Shown one piece after another: positions 1,323 to 7,220 of a stretch of DNA of 7,369 nt (its first letter is position 1; every line of letters starts with the position of its first letter). The notes beneath the pieces were generated by a model that saw nothing but the letters and a program-made list of their open reading frames with translations, searched no databases and was not told the origin of the DNA. The translations under genes were made by a program, and so were the position numbers. Source of the DNA: Methanotrichaceae archaeon (GTDB lineage Archaea > Halobacteriota > Methanosarcinia > Methanotrichales > Methanotrichaceae); assembly GCA_013329455.1 (NCBI GenBank), contig DUKF01000170.1:1-7369 (forward strand), read 5' to 3'.

Positions 1323-1559
1323 CTAAAGGTATCGGTCAAAGGCAACGAATATGATCAGGATCAAAGCCGGCAGAGTCCAGAGGAACGATCCCTCGCTGGG
1401 AACTGTCCCTTCTTCGGCATCGCGGTTCTCCCCGGTCCTGCCTCCGTTCCCCTCATCGCTTTCCGGACCGTTCCCGTTTCCCTTCGAGGGTGACGAGGTG
1501 GCTTTTTCTTGGGGACGTCCGGTCTCTTCGATCTCGGTGGTCGAGGTCGAGTCGTCCAT
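1323..1559 (-). CDS. C-terminal linker and membrane-anchor frame of the Ig-like surface protein (+1 frame)
   Basis: This 78-codon frame begins MDDSTSTTEIEETG, runs through a Ser/Thr/Glu/Gly/Asn-rich linker, and ends in one hydrophobic span (FLWTLPALILIIFVAFDRYL). That is the standard C-terminal anchor plan, and the operon's first gene ends the same way. It overlaps the end of the upstream gene in the +1 frame. Removing one A from the AAAA run at 1559-1562 would fuse it directly after ITIENGE, giving a 529-residue anchored protein. The upstream gene's own frame becomes Arg-rich from this point, as expected for reading out of frame. Alternatively it is a separate tail-anchored mini-protein started by coupling: GGAG lies 3 nt before its ATG. 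Its stop is 51 bp (12 bp by the longer start) from the propeller gene. Confidence 0.6.
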   Translation of the reverse strand: MDDSTSTTEIEETGRPQEKATSSPSKGNGNGPESDEGNGGRTGENRDAEEGTVPSEGSFLWTLPALILIIFVAFDRYL

Positions 1560-2913
1560 TTTCTCCGTTCTCGATGGTTATCCTGAGGCGGGAGGATTTC
1601 AGGGTGCAGGCGGTCCCGTCGTCGTCCCGATAACATACGCTGGTGGGCGGAATCTCGAACCTGCCAGCCTCCGGGCATGATATGGTGTACTTCAGGGTGG
1701 CGGCCTCCTCTGGCAGAAGGACCTGGGAGAATTCCGTCTCCCCAGAGGTGAGCCTGGCCCAGGCCGGAACCGTCTCCTTCACCGAGGCCTTCGTCCTCCG
1801 GTTGCCGACGTTCTTCGCCGTCATGGTCACCGTCACCTCTTCGCCCGTCTTGACCATTGCGGAGGAGGCTTCCTTCTCGACCTCCACCAGGGGGCCGATG
1901 ACGTCGATGACAGGGCCCGTTGATGTGACCTTGTAGGTCTTCTCATCGAGGGAGTAGGCCGCCTCTGCCGGTGGGAGGATCTGCCCCTCACCGGGCCTTT
2001 CTGCGCTGATGGTGTAGCTGGCAGTCTCTCTCCCCCCCGGCGGTATCGTCATCTTCCAGTTCAAGGCGGCGTCTGCCTGAAAATCCCGGCCGGCCGAGTC
2101 GGTTAGCTCAACTTCGAGGGTCCTATCGCCGCCGTTGCTTATAGAGAGGTGGACGTAACTCTTCTTTCCGAACTTGATCGCGTCTTCCGTGTACTTGTTA
2201 ACCTTGAGGGGTCCAAAGAGGTCAAAGCTCGTACCGCCCCAAGACTCGTGAAAACCTCCCTCGGAGTCGAGGTAGCGGGCGTGGGCCTTCACAAGAACCT
2301 CTTCAGGGCCCGGCATCGACGGCGTTTTGAACCTCAGACTGATCGGGTCGATCTCCTTTGTGCCCGGATCTTCGTCCCAGACCTCGCCGGGGACAAGATT
2401 AGATCTCGAATATTTCGAGGAGACGATTGCGGGGTCAGAAGTCAGCTCGATCTTTACATCCTCGGCATCTGCCATCCCGACGTTCACGATCTCGATCTCG
2501 AGCTTCGCCCGATCTCCGGCTTCGTAAGAGTCCTCGTCCGAGACGATGTGGACTCGAAGCTCGGGAACTGCGCGGACTAGAAGGACCACTTCGGCGCGGG
2601 GTTCGACCGACTCGTCGAGAAGGTAGTCCTTCATCCTGACTTCCTCGGCCACGACCATGACCTCATCGTCCAAAGAGAAGCTGTCGCCCGATTCGAGGGC
2701 CCTTGTGGCGACCAGCTCATCGCCCTTGTAAAGATTCACCATCACCATTCTGGGAGTTGTGTCCTCAGAAGTGAAGTCCGCCGCCTCGAGGGTGTATTCG
2801 CCCATCTGGAGCGTCTCTCCCCAACGGAGTTCTCCATTGGCCTGGTCACCCCACTCGACCGCTGTCCCGATCATCGATGCCAGAAGCAGATAGGCGAGGA
2901 GCGTTCTCATCAT
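1453..2913 (-). CDS. Secreted multi-domain Ig-like surface protein, apparently frameshifted near its C-terminus
   Basis: As read, this encodes 486 residues. The signal peptide (MMRTLLAYLLLASMIGTAVE) is followed by an all-beta N-terminal domain at about 26-113, beginning GELRWGETLQMGEYTLEAAD and resembling S-layer-associated beta domains of methanogens. Next come a CARDB-like domain at about 119-235 (AGDRAKLEIEIVNVGMADAE), another beta domain at 236-340, and a DUF11-like domain at about 342-448 (KTGEEVTVTMTAKNVG). The last ~35 residues are Arg/Asp-rich and unlike the rest; the true C-terminus is probably the +1 frame at 1559-1323. The start at 2913 is one base after the TGA of the upstream gene, which implies translational coupling; an ATG at 2910 is equally possible. 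A longer frame reaching 3093 is rejected because its first 60 residues are Arg-rich and lie inside the upstream gene. A structural or adhesive envelope role is inferred. Confidence 0.75.
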   Translation of the reverse strand: MMRTLLAYLLLASMIGTAVEWGDQANGELRWGETLQMGEYTLEAADFTSEDTTPRMVMVNLYKGDELVATRALESGDSFSLDDEVMVVAEEVRMKDYLLDESVEPRAEVVLLVRAVPELRVHIVSDEDSYEAGDRAKLEIEIVNVGMADAEDVKIELTSDPAIVSSKYSRSNLVPGEVWDEDPGTKEIDPISLRFKTPSMPGPEEVLVKAHARYLDSEGGFHESWGGTSFDLFGPLKVNKYTEDAIKFGKKSYVHLSISNGGDRTLEVELTDSAGRDFQADAALNWKMTIPPGGRETASYTISAERPGEGQILPPAEAAYSLDEKTYKVTSTGPVIDVIGPLVEVEKEASSAMVKTGEEVTVTMTAKNVGNRRTKASVKETVPAWARLTSGETEFSQVLLPEEAATLKYTISCPEAGRFEIPPTSVCYRDDDGTACTLKSSRLRITIENGENGRLDLDHRDRRDRTSPRKSHLVTLEGKRERSGKR

Positions 2914-2914
2914 G

Positions 2915-4192
2915 TCAACGCCTGAAGAAGATGATGTAGATCGCGAGAATCGCCCCGATCGTCGAGATGTACAGGGTCGCGCTTCCCGCATCGGGACCGT
3001 CTTCCTCATCCTTCTCATCGGGTTTTTGCTCGCGTTCGTCCCCGGTCGGCGTCTTCTCTTCCTGGCTCGTCTTTGCTTTGTCAGCGGGGGCATCGATCTC
3101 GCCGGAGTTTGACGATGCCTGCTTTGAGTCGCTCACTCCGTTTTGGGACGATATGTCCTCCTTCTCGTCATCATCTTTCGTCGATGTGGAAGTGGTCTTG
3201 ATGCTGGTGGTTGTTTTAGACGATCCGGTCTTTGAGGCGGCCTTCTCCTTTTCCTCCTCGCTTTCGAAGGTCATCCCCTTGGGGGCATAGAAGGTAATAA
3301 CGTCCTTTCCGTCGACCCTGACGGTCTTCCTCTTCTCGTACTCGATATTCGTCTCCGAGTCCTGCCACCTCACCGCCAGCTCGTGTGTCCCCTCTTCGAG
3401 GTCGAACTTGCCAAAGTCGGTGGTGCTATCCTTTTTGGCGGTCTTTTGCTTTTCGTACTCGCCGTCTATGTACAGGTAGGCTTCGAGGTCTTCCTGGTTC
3501 TCGTTTCTCATCATTACGTTGACCTCGAACTCCTCGGGCTCCTTGTTCTGGGTCGCGTAGAGGGTGATCGCCGTCTCCTCCTCCACCGTCGCGACCAGAT
3601 CCTCCTGGTGAGTCTTTTTGGTGTCGTCATCCCACCAGCTGATCTTGAACCTAAGAGACCCCGCCTCGAGCTGGTAATTGCCGAACTTCTTCTCCTTGTC
3701 CTTGGATACGTCCTCGGTGTCCTTCAGTTCCGAGTCTATGAAGAGGGACACGCTCAGGGTGTCGTCGTCGTTGTTGAAGACGTAGACAACGGCCTCGGCC
3801 ATCGTCGGCTCTGCCGCTTCCAACTCCTCTTTGATCTCGTCAGCATCAGCGAGGGTACCCGTCTCATTCGTCTCAGAAGGGTCGATCTCGGTCGCCGCAT
3901 CTTCGCTGGAACTCTCTATTGCGCCGGAGGAAGCCGATACATCCTCCGACTCGATCGATTTCGAGGAGGCCGCCTCTTCGGTTCCGATCTCTTCAGAGCC
4001 CCCAGCGAGCCCCGCGACCTCTTCTAGCGCGGCAGGTTCGGTGCCCATCGGCGTTTCATCGATATCGCCGTATTCGTTCGCCTCCAGGTCTCCGGCCCCC
4101 AGGATCGAGACCGATAAAAGTAGGAAAAGCAAAGCTTGGGAGAGGAAGGCCATCGCCGAGGCGATCTCATGACAAGAAGACTTATCGCTCAT
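2915..4192 (-). CDS. Membrane-anchored surface protein with two tandem Ig-like domains
   Basis: This is a 425-residue extracellular protein and the first gene of the leftward operon. A hydrophobic signal segment lies at about 15-34 (MAFLSQALLFLLLSVSILGA). An acidic Ser/Glu-rich stretch spans 35-132. Two homologous beta domains follow at about 133-213 and 222-303, sharing F/Y-I-D-[SG]-E, F-G-x-[YF]-x-L-E-x-G and a W followed by acidic residues. A charged low-complexity linker fills 304-402 and one TM segment (ATLYISTIGAILAIYIIFFR) ends the protein with an Arg pair. No enzyme motif is visible. The plan suggests a stalk that lifts two binding domains off the membrane. The start is uncertain: 4192 adds 13 residues with one Lys before the hydrophobic core, while an ATG at 4153 begins directly at MAFLSQ; neither has a strong ribosome binding site. 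The family was not recognised. Confidence 0.8.
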   Translation of the reverse strand: MSDKSSCHEIASAMAFLSQALLFLLLSVSILGAGDLEANEYGDIDETPMGTEPAALEEVAGLAGGSEEIGTEEAASSKSIESEDVSASSGAIESSSEDAATEIDPSETNETGTLADADEIKEELEAAEPTMAEAVVYVFNNDDDTLSVSLFIDSELKDTEDVSKDKEKKFGNYQLEAGSLRFKISWWDDDTKKTHQEDLVATVEEETAITLYATQNKEPEEFEVNVMMRNENQEDLEAYLYIDGEYEKQKTAKKDSTTDFGKFDLEEGTHELAVRWQDSETNIEYEKRKTVRVDGKDVITFYAPKGMTFESEEEKEKAASKTGSSKTTTSIKTTSTSTKDDDEKEDISSQNGVSDSKQASSNSGEIDAPADKAKTSQEEKTPTGDEREQKPDEKDEEDGPDAGSATLYISTIGAILAIYIIFFRR

Positions 4193-4220
4193 ACAGAACG
4201 GCCGAAATTGAACTTTATCA

Positions 4221-4234
4221 TTTATGAATTATAC
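4221..4234 (-). promoter_or_regulatory. Candidate TATA region for the leftward surface-protein operon
   Basis: The minus strand reads GTATAATTCATAAA here, the only AT-rich block upstream of the leftward operon. A start about 25 nt downstream would fall near 4200. That gives a very short leader for the ATG at 4192, or about 50 nt for the ATG at 4153. The match to the archaeal TATA consensus is only fair. Confidence 0.4.
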
Positions 4235-4264
4235 GTCTCGTCTGGACTTGAAGGGCGCCTGATG

Positions 4265-4277
4265 GACCTCAAAGGTC
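4265..4277. promoter_or_regulatory. Perfect dyad GACCT-CAA-AGGTC, possible operator
   Basis: Two 5-bp half-sites form a perfect inverted repeat with a 3-bp centre, located between the two divergent promoter candidates. Winged-helix regulators of this general kind bind short dyads. A half-site this short can arise by chance, so the role is inferred. Confidence 0.25.
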
Positions 4278-4325
4278 TGTTCTCACGAAGGAGAGTCTGC
4301 TCTTCCGCTTGCAAGACGCCCAAAA

Positions 4326-4336
4326 CTTAAATATAT
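4326..4336 (+). promoter_or_regulatory. Archaeal TATA box of the regulator operon
   Basis: CTTAAATATAT is a close match to the archaeal TATA consensus (TTTAWATA). It is preceded by an A-rich CCAAAAC that could act as the BRE. Transcription would begin around 4355-4360, leaving a leader of about 25 nt before the ATG at 4383. It is the strongest promoter signal in the window. Confidence 0.65.
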
Positions 4337-4382
4337 TCGACCTCCAACTTCTGACCAAAACCGACTTTGCAAAAGGATCTTG

Positions 4383-5471
4383 ATGAAGGATATCGATAGA
4401 TTGATTCGATTGGTGTTAACTCTCTTCATGACCGCGGCCGTCGTCCTCAGCTTTGGCTCTTTGGCTCAGGAGGCTTTCGGGGACGAAAGTTCAGATTCGA
4501 GTGGCCTGGTCCTCGACATCTACGCGGACGATGCCGGCAAGGCTCTGGTGACCGGATACGCGAAGGGGATCGAGGGTCTGCTCTTTTTAAACGTCTCGGA
4601 ATACCAGTACGACAACAATACCTACCAGCTTTACGCGGTAACAAACGCCCTAACCTGGAAAAATGGGGTCGACTGGGAGATCAGGCTGCCTGCAGAGGGG
4701 AGTTACGGCGAGTATCACGTCACTTTTTATCTATCAGAAAACGTCCAGCTCAGCAACATCACCGGCACCGAAGGTCTCGATTATCTCGTCTCCTCCTCCA
4801 GCGACTCCTTTGTGGTGGAGTTTCACGGTTATGACGTGACAAATCCCTCTGCCGCCGTCCGGTACCGCCAGCCTTTGAAAAACGGCGAGGTCGAAGCGGC
4901 GGCGGCAAACGGCCTTCAGCCCCTCCAGCCGACGGAAAGCTCCTCTCTTCCTCTCGTCCTCGTCGGCGCTCTCATTCTCGCTCTGATCGTCTTTGTTGCG
5001 GCGTTCAAGTTCAGAAGACAGGGGGGCTCTCCCTCGCCTGGGGGTGCGGAGACTTCTTACGACCTCGAGACGGTCGCGGCGGTCGAGCCCGTTCGCGAAG
5101 TCCGAGTGGCCGACGATGAGGCGCACCATGAGGCCGAAGCCGAGGCCGATGCGGTGCTTGCAGATTCCTCTCATAACACCACGTCGGTTGACGAGAACGT
5201 CGATGCTCTGATCTCAGGGGAGATGACGGCCGTGATGGAGACCCTGACCGAGAGGGAGAGGTCGGTCCTTGAGGCTTTGATAAAGCACGAGGGGAAGATG
5301 ACCCAGGCAGACATAAGGTACGAGACGGGAATTCCCAAGTCCTCCCTGACCGGGATAATAGTATCTCTGGAGAGGAGAAATATCGTGACCAAGAAAGAAT
5401 GGGGTAGAACGAATGTCATCGAGCTATCCGAGCGGCTCAGGGGAGAAAATGAGAACGATCAAGCGTTCTGA
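4383..5471 (+). CDS. Membrane-bound one-component transcriptional regulator (outer sensor, TM, winged HTH)
   Basis: This 362-residue protein appears to join outside sensing to DNA binding in one chain. A signal/anchor segment spans about 8-30. An extracellular beta domain (about 42-162: LVLDIYADDAGKALVTGY, then EYHVTFYL and GLDYLV) is followed by a TM segment at 189-208 with the stop-transfer FKFRR. A disordered acidic His-containing linker (213-280) leads to a MarR/TrmB-like winged helix (about 286-355: LTERERSVLEALIKHEGKMT, recognition helix IPKSSLTGIIVSLERRN, wing TKKEWGRTNVIELS). The plan matches archaeal membrane HTH proteins of the DUF7345/DUF7343 kind, recalled from general knowledge. 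There is no kinase or receiver domain. Three N-glycosylation sequons (N70, N78, N125) lie in the outer domain. AAGGA lies 5 nt before the ATG; the TTG one codon earlier is rejected. It likely controls the divergent promoters beside it (inference). Confidence 0.85.
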   Translation: MKDIDRLIRLVLTLFMTAAVVLSFGSLAQEAFGDESSDSSGLVLDIYADDAGKALVTGYAKGIEGLLFLNVSEYQYDNNTYQLYAVTNALTWKNGVDWEIRLPAEGSYGEYHVTFYLSENVQLSNITGTEGLDYLVSSSSDSFVVEFHGYDVTNPSAAVRYRQPLKNGEVEAAAANGLQPLQPTESSSLPLVLVGALILALIVFVAAFKFRRQGGSPSPGGAETSYDLETVAAVEPVREVRVADDEAHHEAEAEADAVLADSSHNTTSVDENVDALISGEMTAVMETLTERERSVLEALIKHEGKMTQADIRYETGIPKSSLTGIIVSLERRNIVTKKEWGRTNVIELSERLRGENENDQAF

Positions 5472-5603: not shown

Positions 5604-6653
5604 ATGAACCCCTCGATCCGAAGGATCTTAGGCCCAAGTTTGGCGATGCTGCTGTTGATGAGCTTTGTGGGGACGAGCCTCGCGTTTCCTTCAGAGAGCA
5701 GGAGAGGCGCAGAAGATCTGAGTTTGGCAAAAGTTCCCGGGATAGTCTTTTGCCAAATCGCCGACATGGGCCATATCGGAGACGGACCCCAGGTTCTAAT
5801 ATCGATCGTCCGTTCGGAGAGGGGTTTTGTCCTTGGGCCCGACAACGAAACTCTGCCCGTAAGGCTGCAGGTGGAGAAGGTGAGAGGGATCGATCCGTCT
5901 CAGGTCCGACGGCTTCTGAGAGAGAACCGGACCCTCCGGGAGATCAAGGCGGAGATCGAGGGTGACAATCAGGCCTACAATTATCGGGGCAGCATGCGCA
6001 TCGGCCGGGCCCAATACGTTCTCGACAACCTCAACATGACCTCGGAGGATCCCAACTCTACCCTAGAGGCGGACGTGATGGAGCCGGTCTGGGGCGCGAT
6101 CCAGACGGCATCTGAGCCGAGCCTTGAGATGGCCGGGCACATCAGCATCGGGACTCGCCGTCAGGACGGGTCGGGGATCAGAGTCGGGAGCCTCGTGATC
6201 TTCAACGGCCCGTACGCTGGCAGCTATGCGATTCTGCTGGACTCGTCCATCGGCACCGGATGTGGGATGGAATCCTGCCCGATGTGGGGTGGCGATCTGG
6301 CAAGTTTCACGGCCAGATCGGAAGTTCGAGAGATTCGCCAGCAGGGGAATCGGCATTCATTTTCAGCATGGTCTGGGGCAGGTTCTCCGGTCTCATTCTG
6401 GGATATGATCAGCCGCAGCCCCGGTGCTGTCATGATCTCCACCACCTTCGGCCCGGGATGTGGGGGCGGTGGCTGCCCTTTTCAGCCCGATCCGTCTGCT
6501 GGCCCGTCTGAGATGATGCCCTGGAACCTGGCGTGTGGTGAGCTCGGTCTTGAAGGTTTTTGCGGATTCGGAGGGGACGGTGAATGCGATCCGGCAGGGT
6601 TTGCGCCTGGAGATGGGCCTCATCGGCTCTGGCCCATGGCTTCTGAAATCTGA
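5604..6653 (+). CDS. Secreted protein with duplicated GxGCGxxxCP motif, function unknown
   Basis: This 349-residue protein begins with a signal peptide (MNPSIRRILGPSLAMLLLMS, continuing to about residue 28). Residues 44-160 form a mixed alpha/beta region containing the charged segment DPSQVRRLLRENRTLREIKA and then YRGSMRIGRAQYVLDNL. The C-terminal part holds two copies of a beta-like unit: A-I-L-L-D-S-S-I-G-T-G-C-G-x3-C-P (209-226) and A-V-M-I-S-T-T-F-G-P-G-C-G-x3-C-P (275-292). A Cys-rich tail follows (C311, C320, C328). The Cys pairs could form disulfides or bind a metal. Four sequons (N81, N108, N144, N151) fit an exported glycoprotein. There is no C-terminal anchor. The start at 5604 is set by GAGAGG-x2-GTGATC, 5 nt upstream, and the signal peptide. 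The next gene follows after 6 bp. No family is recognised. Confidence 0.8.
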   Translation: MNPSIRRILGPSLAMLLLMSFVGTSLAFPSESRRGAEDLSLAKVPGIVFCQIADMGHIGDGPQVLISIVRSERGFVLGPDNETLPVRLQVEKVRGIDPSQVRRLLRENRTLREIKAEIEGDNQAYNYRGSMRIGRAQYVLDNLNMTSEDPNSTLEADVMEPVWGAIQTASEPSLEMAGHISIGTRRQDGSGIRVGSLVIFNGPYAGSYAILLDSSIGTGCGMESCPMWGGDLASFTARSEVREIRQQGNRHSFSAWSGAGSPVSFWDMISRSPGAVMISTTFGPGCGGGGCPFQPDPSAGPSEMMPWNLACGELGLEGFCGFGGDGECDPAGFAPGDGPHRLWPMASEI

Positions 6654-6659
6654 GAGGTT

Positions 6660-7220
6660 TTGGACTTGATCGAAGTAGAGCATCAACCAAGACTTCTCAG
6701 CCGGGCATCGCCGTCGTCAGCTATGGCTTTTGTTCTCCTCGGCGTCATCGCCCTTTTCGCCCTTGCCGTCTCTCCAGCTCTGGGCGACGATTCCGTCGCC
6801 TCAGTATCTGAGGACCTGGGGGAATCTGCATCCGGAAGCATCGTCCTGGACGTATACCTGGACGAGGTGGGTAGAGCTCTTCTCGTCGGATATCTGGAGA
6901 CCGAAAGTGCTGAAGCCCTCGCCTTTCTCGAGAACTCCGAGTACGTCCACGACGTGGTGACTGGGGAGCTTTACGCCCTGAGCGGCGGTTTGACCTCGAT
7001 CCCGGGAGACGAAACGAGGCTGGAGTTTGAGGCCGAAGCCGAGTGGGATGAGTTCCATTTGACCTTCTATCTGCCAGCGGATGCAAAGCTATTGAGCGTC
7101 AGCTGTTCAGAGGGTCTCGAGTACTCCGTCGCTGAAGTTGAGGATTCCCTAGCGGTGGAGGTTCTCGGCTACGAGGTGGAAGGGGTAGAGGTCGCGATAG
7201 ATTACAATCTCGCGGGATGA
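6660..7220 (+). CDS. Stand-alone secreted paralogue of the regulator's sensor domain
   Basis: This protein of up to 186 residues has a signal segment (MAFVLLGVIALFALAVSPAL) and then one beta domain (about 60-183) homologous to the outer domain of the regulator at 4383-5471. The shared order is [IL]VLD[IV]Y-x-D-x-x-G-[KR]-A-L-[LV]-x-G-Y, SEY, LYA[LV], E-[YF]-H-[LV]-TFYL, [ST]-EGL-[ED]-Y and GY-[DE]-V. It stops where the regulator goes on to its TM segment and winged helix, and the DNA after 7220 holds no remnant of either. No N-glycosylation sequon is present, unlike the regulator copy. The start is uncertain. TTG at 6660 or 6666 follows AGAGG (6653-6657) and gives an Arg-containing n-region, while ATG at 6723 starts directly at the hydrophobic core without a clear ribosome binding site. 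It is probably co-transcribed with the Cys-motif gene. Possible roles are co-sensor, ligand carrier or decoy (inference). Confidence 0.75.
   Translation: MDLIEVEHQPRLLSRASPSSAMAFVLLGVIALFALAVSPALGDDSVASVSEDLGESASGSIVLDVYLDEVGRALLVGYLETESAEALAFLENSEYVHDVVTGELYALSGGLTSIPGDETRLEFEAEAEWDEFHLTFYLPADAKLLSVSCSEGLEYSVAEVEDSLAVEVLGYEVEGVEVAIDYNLAG

Follow-up and report, generated by a model that had tools for sequence, protein, structure and literature searches.

Co-component systems such as VtrA/VtrC, ToxR/ToxS, TcpP/TcpH and PsaE/PsaF have a hallmark layout, in which the gene for a membrane helix-turn-helix (HTH) regulator is followed by the gene for an exported lipocalin-like barrel, and most of the partner proteins carry a calycin barrel, predicted or solved (Kinch et al. 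2022, PMC9214523); the accessible part of that text does not contain the word 'archaea'. Transmembrane transcription regulators, which include archaeal ArnR and are widespread in archaea, combine a transmembrane (TM) region and a DNA-binding domain in one chain (accessible part of Demey et al. 2023, PMC10269533). The archaeal locus described here has likenesses to both, and the unit worth studying within it is a set of three genes: REG, which encodes a membrane regulator, SOLO, which encodes a free copy of its outer domain, and MID, the gene between them. Secreted free copies of receptor ectodomains are familiar in eukaryotes as soluble or decoy receptors, to which SOLO offers an analogy only, its ligand, binding and effect being proposed ones. 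No paper that deals with REG, MID and SOLO together, or with a co-component system in archaea, was present among the matches listed from the open-licence PMC literature.

The window, a stretch of 7,369 nt that constitutes one entire contig of a 2.17 Mb assembly, carries REG, MID and SOLO in this order on the + strand, an arrangement that fits a putative operon. REG (4383..5471, with an alternative TTG start at 4380) encodes an N-terminal hydrophobic segment, an outer (sensor) beta domain (4500..4868, residues 41-163 of the TTG-start ORF by HMM match), a predicted TM helix (4932..4988, from a hydropathy window at residue 185) and a C-terminal winged HTH (wHTH) DNA-binding domain (5244..5426) that belongs to DUF7343 (PF24034, Pfam E 3.3e-14), with MarR_2 overlapping. 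MID ends at 6653, and the SOLO ORF (6660..7220), encoding a predicted secreted protein, opens at 6660. Translation of SOLO probably starts at TTG 6660 or 6666 rather than at ATG 6723, since residues upstream of the latter are conserved in relatives.

REG thus has the predicted TM region and predicted DNA-binding domain of a transmembrane transcription regulator; in the accessible table of PMC10269533 no associated protein is given for ArnR, whereas REG is accompanied by a conserved neighbour, joined in one family by a free outer domain. The likeness to co-component systems goes further. REG is predicted to be a membrane-tethered transcription factor that holds its HTH in the cytoplasm and its input domain outside; MID, predicted to be exported and modelled with modest confidence as a lipocalin-like barrel, lies directly downstream on the same strand, also in relatives (in genera g2 and g6 a further ORF, X, intervenes); the two genes at times overlap slightly (by 4 nt in G004 and G007, taking the longest ORFs); and the partner evolves fast, with dN/dS medians for MID of 0.37 in g1, the window's genus, and 0.24 in g2, against 0.10 and 0.11 for REG. 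In other respects the locus differs from these systems: it is archaeal, the topology of REG is inverted, with the outer domain N-terminal and the wHTH C-terminal, the wHTH is DUF7343/MarR-like and not of the OmpR/CadC type, the outer domain is modelled as an all-beta and not an alpha-beta sandwich, and SOLO is added, to which nothing comparable was found in the accessible part of PMC9214523. The C-terminal DUF7343/MarR-like wHTH and the N-terminal all-beta outer domain rule out membership of REG in the VtrA/ToxR superfamily. The REG-MID pair may, by analogy, work like a co-component system while standing outside that superfamily, and what would be new is the detached receptor domain added to a co-component-like pair.

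The identity of SOLO as a copy of the outer domain of REG is clear from sequence comparison. In a single BLASTP comparison the two share 36% identity and 53% positives over 160 aa (E 3e-27), a match that is far beyond chance. The original prediction had delimited the shared domain in both proteins and named a series of common motifs; an HMM iterated out of the two window domains gives nearly identical bounds (6834..7208 in SOLO, residues 59-183), and the motifs are present in the alignment. It had also described SOLO as exported and devoid of membrane and DNA-binding parts, which agrees with hydropathy and Pfam analyses: SOLO has one hydrophobic segment, a signal-peptide-like start at the N-terminus, no second membrane segment and no wHTH, while REG has two such segments (N-terminal and near residue 185). 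No Pfam family matches SOLO at E up to 1, and besides SOLO and REG no further copy of the outer domain was found in the 273 contigs of the window's own genome (81.5% complete). Of the 48 columns that reach at least 80% conservation in REG, 17 show the same residue at an equal level of conservation in SOLO; none are conserved in both with different residues. Two cysteines, in the motifs ECHLAFYL and VSCSEG, occur in many g1 solos, and the SOLO of the window has only the second.

Single-chain AF2 models were obtained for SOLO and MID. Ten-residue blocks across the SOLO outer domain, modelled as an all-beta sandwich, have pLDDT values of 76-96; the solved folds that VIA-align puts closest to it belong to a domain of ribophorin I/Ost1 and to the N-terminal domains of M1 aminopeptidases, at an identity of 12% or less, and ranking by Foldseek E-value places GLIC channels first (TM about 0.27) and Ost1 third (TM 0.49). 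PDB sequence searches with the outer-domain and MID profiles returned no match at E up to 1. MID (5604..6653, + strand) is a predicted secreted protein with a conserved core and a variable Cys/Gly/Pro-rich tail, and matches nothing in Pfam or NCBIfam at E up to 1. Its core (5793..6242) is modelled, with modest confidence, as an up-and-down beta barrel of lipocalin-like type that also has two short helices: ten-residue blocks between residues 71 and 210 have pLDDT values of 73-89, except for 56 at 161-170, in a model with a whole-chain mean of 51.8, the other four models reaching 37-39. Structure matches to the core are calycin-like, in a model whose overall confidence is low; Foldseek gave no match to MID at E up to 0.001, and VtrC and ToxS are absent among the best 50 structure matches listed. 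Protein matches to MID include Methanocrinis sp. and Methanotrichaceae archaeon, and those to REG include Methanothrix sp., which points to a Methanotrichaceae source, probably Methanocrinis. The window's genome also encodes further MID-family paralogues (at G000:C146:7751-8832 and G000:C259:3480-3869), two of them in tandem, on contigs that carry no outer domain, so that MID-type proteins may do other work as well.

The outer domain is present in all 50 Methanotrichaceae genomes of the collection. An intact SOLO occurs in 23 of them, distributed over 6 of 11 genera, and in 15 of the 33 genomes with completeness of 90% or more and contamination of 5% or less; in one genome (G032) a contig end truncates a SOLO-like piece, and the remaining 26 have SOLO neither intact nor cut. 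Since one- or two-contig assemblies that lack SOLO exist (G001, G004, G022, G023), its absence is real in places, and SOLO is optional in the family. When the sequence behind MID was searched in six frames in 21 loci without SOLO, a single possible remnant emerged (E 2.3e-4), 49 nt past MID in G028. In G016 (L048, L089), copies of the sensor domain and of MID are broken by stops or frameshifts, through either decay of the module or assembly errors, and in G022, a genome without SOLO, three REG paralogues stand in a row (L069:7329-13039) with no MID found beside them.

Where SOLO is intact, the regulator is usually near, as had been proposed: 18 of the 23 intact SOLOs have REG upstream within 2 kb and on the same strand. 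That part of the original prediction stood; what it had overlooked is that the tightest neighbour of SOLO is MID, which lies 3-62 nt upstream on the same strand in 22 of the 23, the one exception being a SOLO at a contig edge with about 150 nt of contig on that side. The MID-SOLO pair is intact in four genomes in which REG stands away, on another contig in G012, G017 and G020, with other genes upstream of MID-SOLO, and at a distance of 6.6 kb in G018, where REG has a second MID of its own; in G071 the contig ends before REG could appear. Across the family, MID is found within 1.2 kb downstream of 41 of 51 REG genes. The intervening X of g2 and g6 is a secreted-type, repeat-bearing ORF (L037:6139-6846, L063:5005-5691 and others) with repeated N-M-T-L-x-E-I motifs; MID has one similar motif, ENRTLGEIKAEIEG, and these motifs are possible N-glycosylation sequons.

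Outside the family, a search of the class (237 genomes) detected the outer domain in 11 genomes of a single genus, Candidatus Methanoperedens (g30), and a sample of the phylum (392 genomes) in 28 genomes of Methanophagales/ANME-1 (family f11) and in one of family f38. The loci read comprised all 11 of Methanoperedens, 19 of the 28 of ANME-1 and that of f38, 31 loci with 34 outer-domain ORFs in total; nine ANME-1 genomes, with frames of 311-371 aa, and a 72-aa partial match (G437:C183) were left out of this reading. All 34 ORFs carry the wHTH, and none among them is a free outer domain. In 25 of the 34 a MID homologue follows at no more than 210 nt, two of these calls resting on weak matches (E about 1e-4); in three others it lies within 1.1 kb and in one at 2.1 kb. 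It is absent in five, in two of which 200 nt or less of contig is left. As MID follows REG in these outgroups, with no SOLO seen, the REG-MID pair probably represents the ancestral unit, with SOLO added behind MID specifically in Methanotrichaceae.

The age of this addition was addressed by phylogeny. Solos stand apart from regulators in a tree built from 78 outer domains after removal of three fragments, with 2 label changes against a mean of 20 after shuffling. Placement of the g2 solos with the g2 regulators is rejected (p-AU 0.0023; five outlying REG rows, G022_C1b three times, G022_C1c and G071, were left out), and the same placement in g1 is borderline (p-AU 0.055). A recent local duplication, as the original prediction had implied, is therefore not what the tree indicates; SOLO is instead an old paralogue, firmly so for g2 and on borderline statistics for g1. 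A single clade of all solos is compatible with the data (p-AU 0.44), yet it appears in just 6% of bootstrap trees, and in a tree that includes outgroups (99 rows, after removal of 13 near-duplicate rows from the family) SOLO requires 3 changes and the outgroup does not fall on one side of a branch. The number of solo origins is uncertain owing to few columns and long branches.

SOLO is under purifying selection and is less constrained than REG. Median dN/dS values (NG86) are 0.35 in g1 (6/6 pairs), 0.15 in g2 (75 of 91 pairs, 16 being saturated) and 0.26 in g5 (one pair), and the bootstrap upper limit is below 1 in 81 of 82 pairs; the 6/6 pairs of g1 and 74 of 75 of g2 on this side speak against the relaxed or degenerate pattern that would have marked SOLO as a decaying duplicate. 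A truncated regulator with a decayed tail was likewise considered, and discarded as no strong wHTH remnant lies behind the 23 SOLOs: in a search that recovered 51/51 regulators as a control, nothing better than E 5 was found apart from three weak matches (E 0.003-0.013) about 0.5 kb behind SOLO in the close relatives L037, L039 and L078. The window itself is hardly probed by this search, as it offers 149 nt behind SOLO.

Co-divergence was evaluated over 22 genomes, 17 of which, those with McrA found, served for comparison with that marker. Beyond McrA, SOLO co-varies with REG (partial r 0.82) and with MID (0.72); it also does so with the wHTH (0.49, or 0.77 without two long-branch solos), which suggests that much of the signal is shared rate. 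With REG and wHTH held constant the SOLO-MID correlation falls to 0.18, a value reached in 120 of 2000 permutations, while SOLO-REG, with MID and wHTH held constant, stays at 0.74 (22 genomes in both cases; the latter value has no permutation figure). Co-divergence was consequently dismissed as proof of SOLO-MID binding, and the difference between the two values indicates that a SOLO-REG relation fits at least as well.

The reading that we tentatively prefer, at somewhat less than an even chance, is that SOLO is a secreted decoy that competes with REG for a shared partner, most likely MID. By analogy with the co-component layout, MID would be the ligand-binding half of the REG receptor: its barrel would bind a small, perhaps hydrophobic, ligand and touch the outer domain of REG, and the wHTH would relay the signal to DNA. 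SOLO copies the half that would touch MID and stays by MID where REG is elsewhere, and would thus be a competitor; having presumably retained the MID-binding face, it would form extracellular MID-SOLO complexes, lower the amount of MID available to REG and so set a threshold. In favour of the decoy are the linkage of SOLO to MID, more constant than that to REG (22/23 against 18/23), the linkage of REG and MID in ANME-1 and Methanoperedens with no free outer domain seen, purifying selection on SOLO, the 17/48 shared columns, co-variation of SOLO with REG and with MID beyond McrA, and a MID core that is calycin-like, as in most co-component partners according to the accessible part of PMC9214523. 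Against it, SOLO-MID co-divergence is weak once REG and wHTH are held constant, the barrel model of MID is weak, roughly half of the genomes lack SOLO while mostly retaining REG-MID, MID paralogues occur on contigs without an outer domain, and SOLO matches just those 17 of 48 columns at the same level. The fuller version of this proposal, a three-part threshold switch in which an archaeal co-component receptor, independent of ToxRS and VtrAC and common to Methanotrichaceae, Methanoperedens and ANME-1, has gained in Methanotrichaceae a decoy that titrates the barrel, is a more doubtful proposition.

The strongest co-divergence, that of SOLO with REG, both given MID and wHTH and given McrA, would rather suit a co-receptor that pairs with the outer domain of REG in a hetero-oligomer of similar domains and modulates signalling directly, MID being a ligand carrier or unrelated. 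The two proteins share the same domain, beta sandwiches often pair edge to edge, and REG lies within 2 kb in 18/23 cases; however, in 4/23 genomes SOLO stands away from REG yet beside MID, and REG genes lack a SOLO both in the outgroup loci that were read and in roughly half of Methanotrichaceae, and we regard a co-receptor as possible but rather doubtful. That SOLO is optional, that MID has paralogues elsewhere and that many predicted secreted proteins are encoded at the locus (X in g2 and g6, the divergent genes of the window) could also mean that SOLO and MID are parts of the envelope or extracellular matrix under the control of REG, SOLO having taken over the receptor's beta sandwich as a useful fold, with no role in signalling. 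This leaves unexplained why SOLO lies directly behind MID in 22/23 cases rather than being scattered, and is unlikely. The same linkage is unexplained if SOLO, with no part played by MID, binds the small molecule of the REG outer domain and either scavenges it or acts as its messenger from cell to cell, a role that its signal-like segment, the lack of a further anchor and the conserved domain core would allow, and on which the likeness to Ost1 and M1 aminopeptidase folds is neutral as regards a small-molecule pocket; we consider it very unlikely. Finally, SOLO could be a functionless, decaying by-product of duplication, given that it evolves faster than REG (dN/dS in g1 of 0.35 against 0.10), is absent from many genomes and has left a possible remnant in G028, and that the sensor copies of G016 are broken; dN/dS values below 1, open frames kept across 6 genera and the absence of a strong wHTH remnant behind SOLO make this highly improbable.

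The promoter alignments covered the region upstream of REG. A TATA/BRE-like box (4320..4339, + strand), 44-63 nt before the REG ATG and largely conserved in 9/9 genomes of the window's genus, is likely the promoter of the REG-MID-SOLO unit, and a conserved AT-rich block (4217..4239, - strand) is likely the promoter of the divergent gene at 2915-4192. It is plausible that REG controls the 4193-4382 intergenic region; no conserved operator palindrome was obvious by eye in the upstream alignments of g1 (9 rows) and g6 (6 rows). The divergent genes, on the - strand at 93-1310, 1453-3093 and 2915-4192, are of secreted or surface type, a trio comprising a repeat protein (GG..DLWL.KTD units), a BatD/DUF11/CARDB protein and an acidic Ser/Thr-rich protein, and they may be targets of REG. 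In several relatives of the window's genus, ORFs of comparable size diverge from REG. Just upstream of REG, L037 has a NAD synthase with a carbon-nitrogen hydrolase domain (L037:3060-4703, Pfam), the one ORF for which this identity was established; in many g2 genomes, as well as in some other genera but not in the window's, REG is preceded by an ORF of comparable length (mostly 541-562 aa).

Acetoclastic Methanotrichaceae, nitrate-linked Methanoperedens and ANME-1 are key methane organisms, and the routes by which signals from outside reach DNA in methane-cycling archaea are barely mapped. If REG and MID are a true receptor pair, they would provide two defined proteins with which to fish out the signal. 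The presence or absence of SOLO between close species constitutes a natural experiment, and if SOLO is a decoy, the locus would represent a receptor-titration device made of three small genes.
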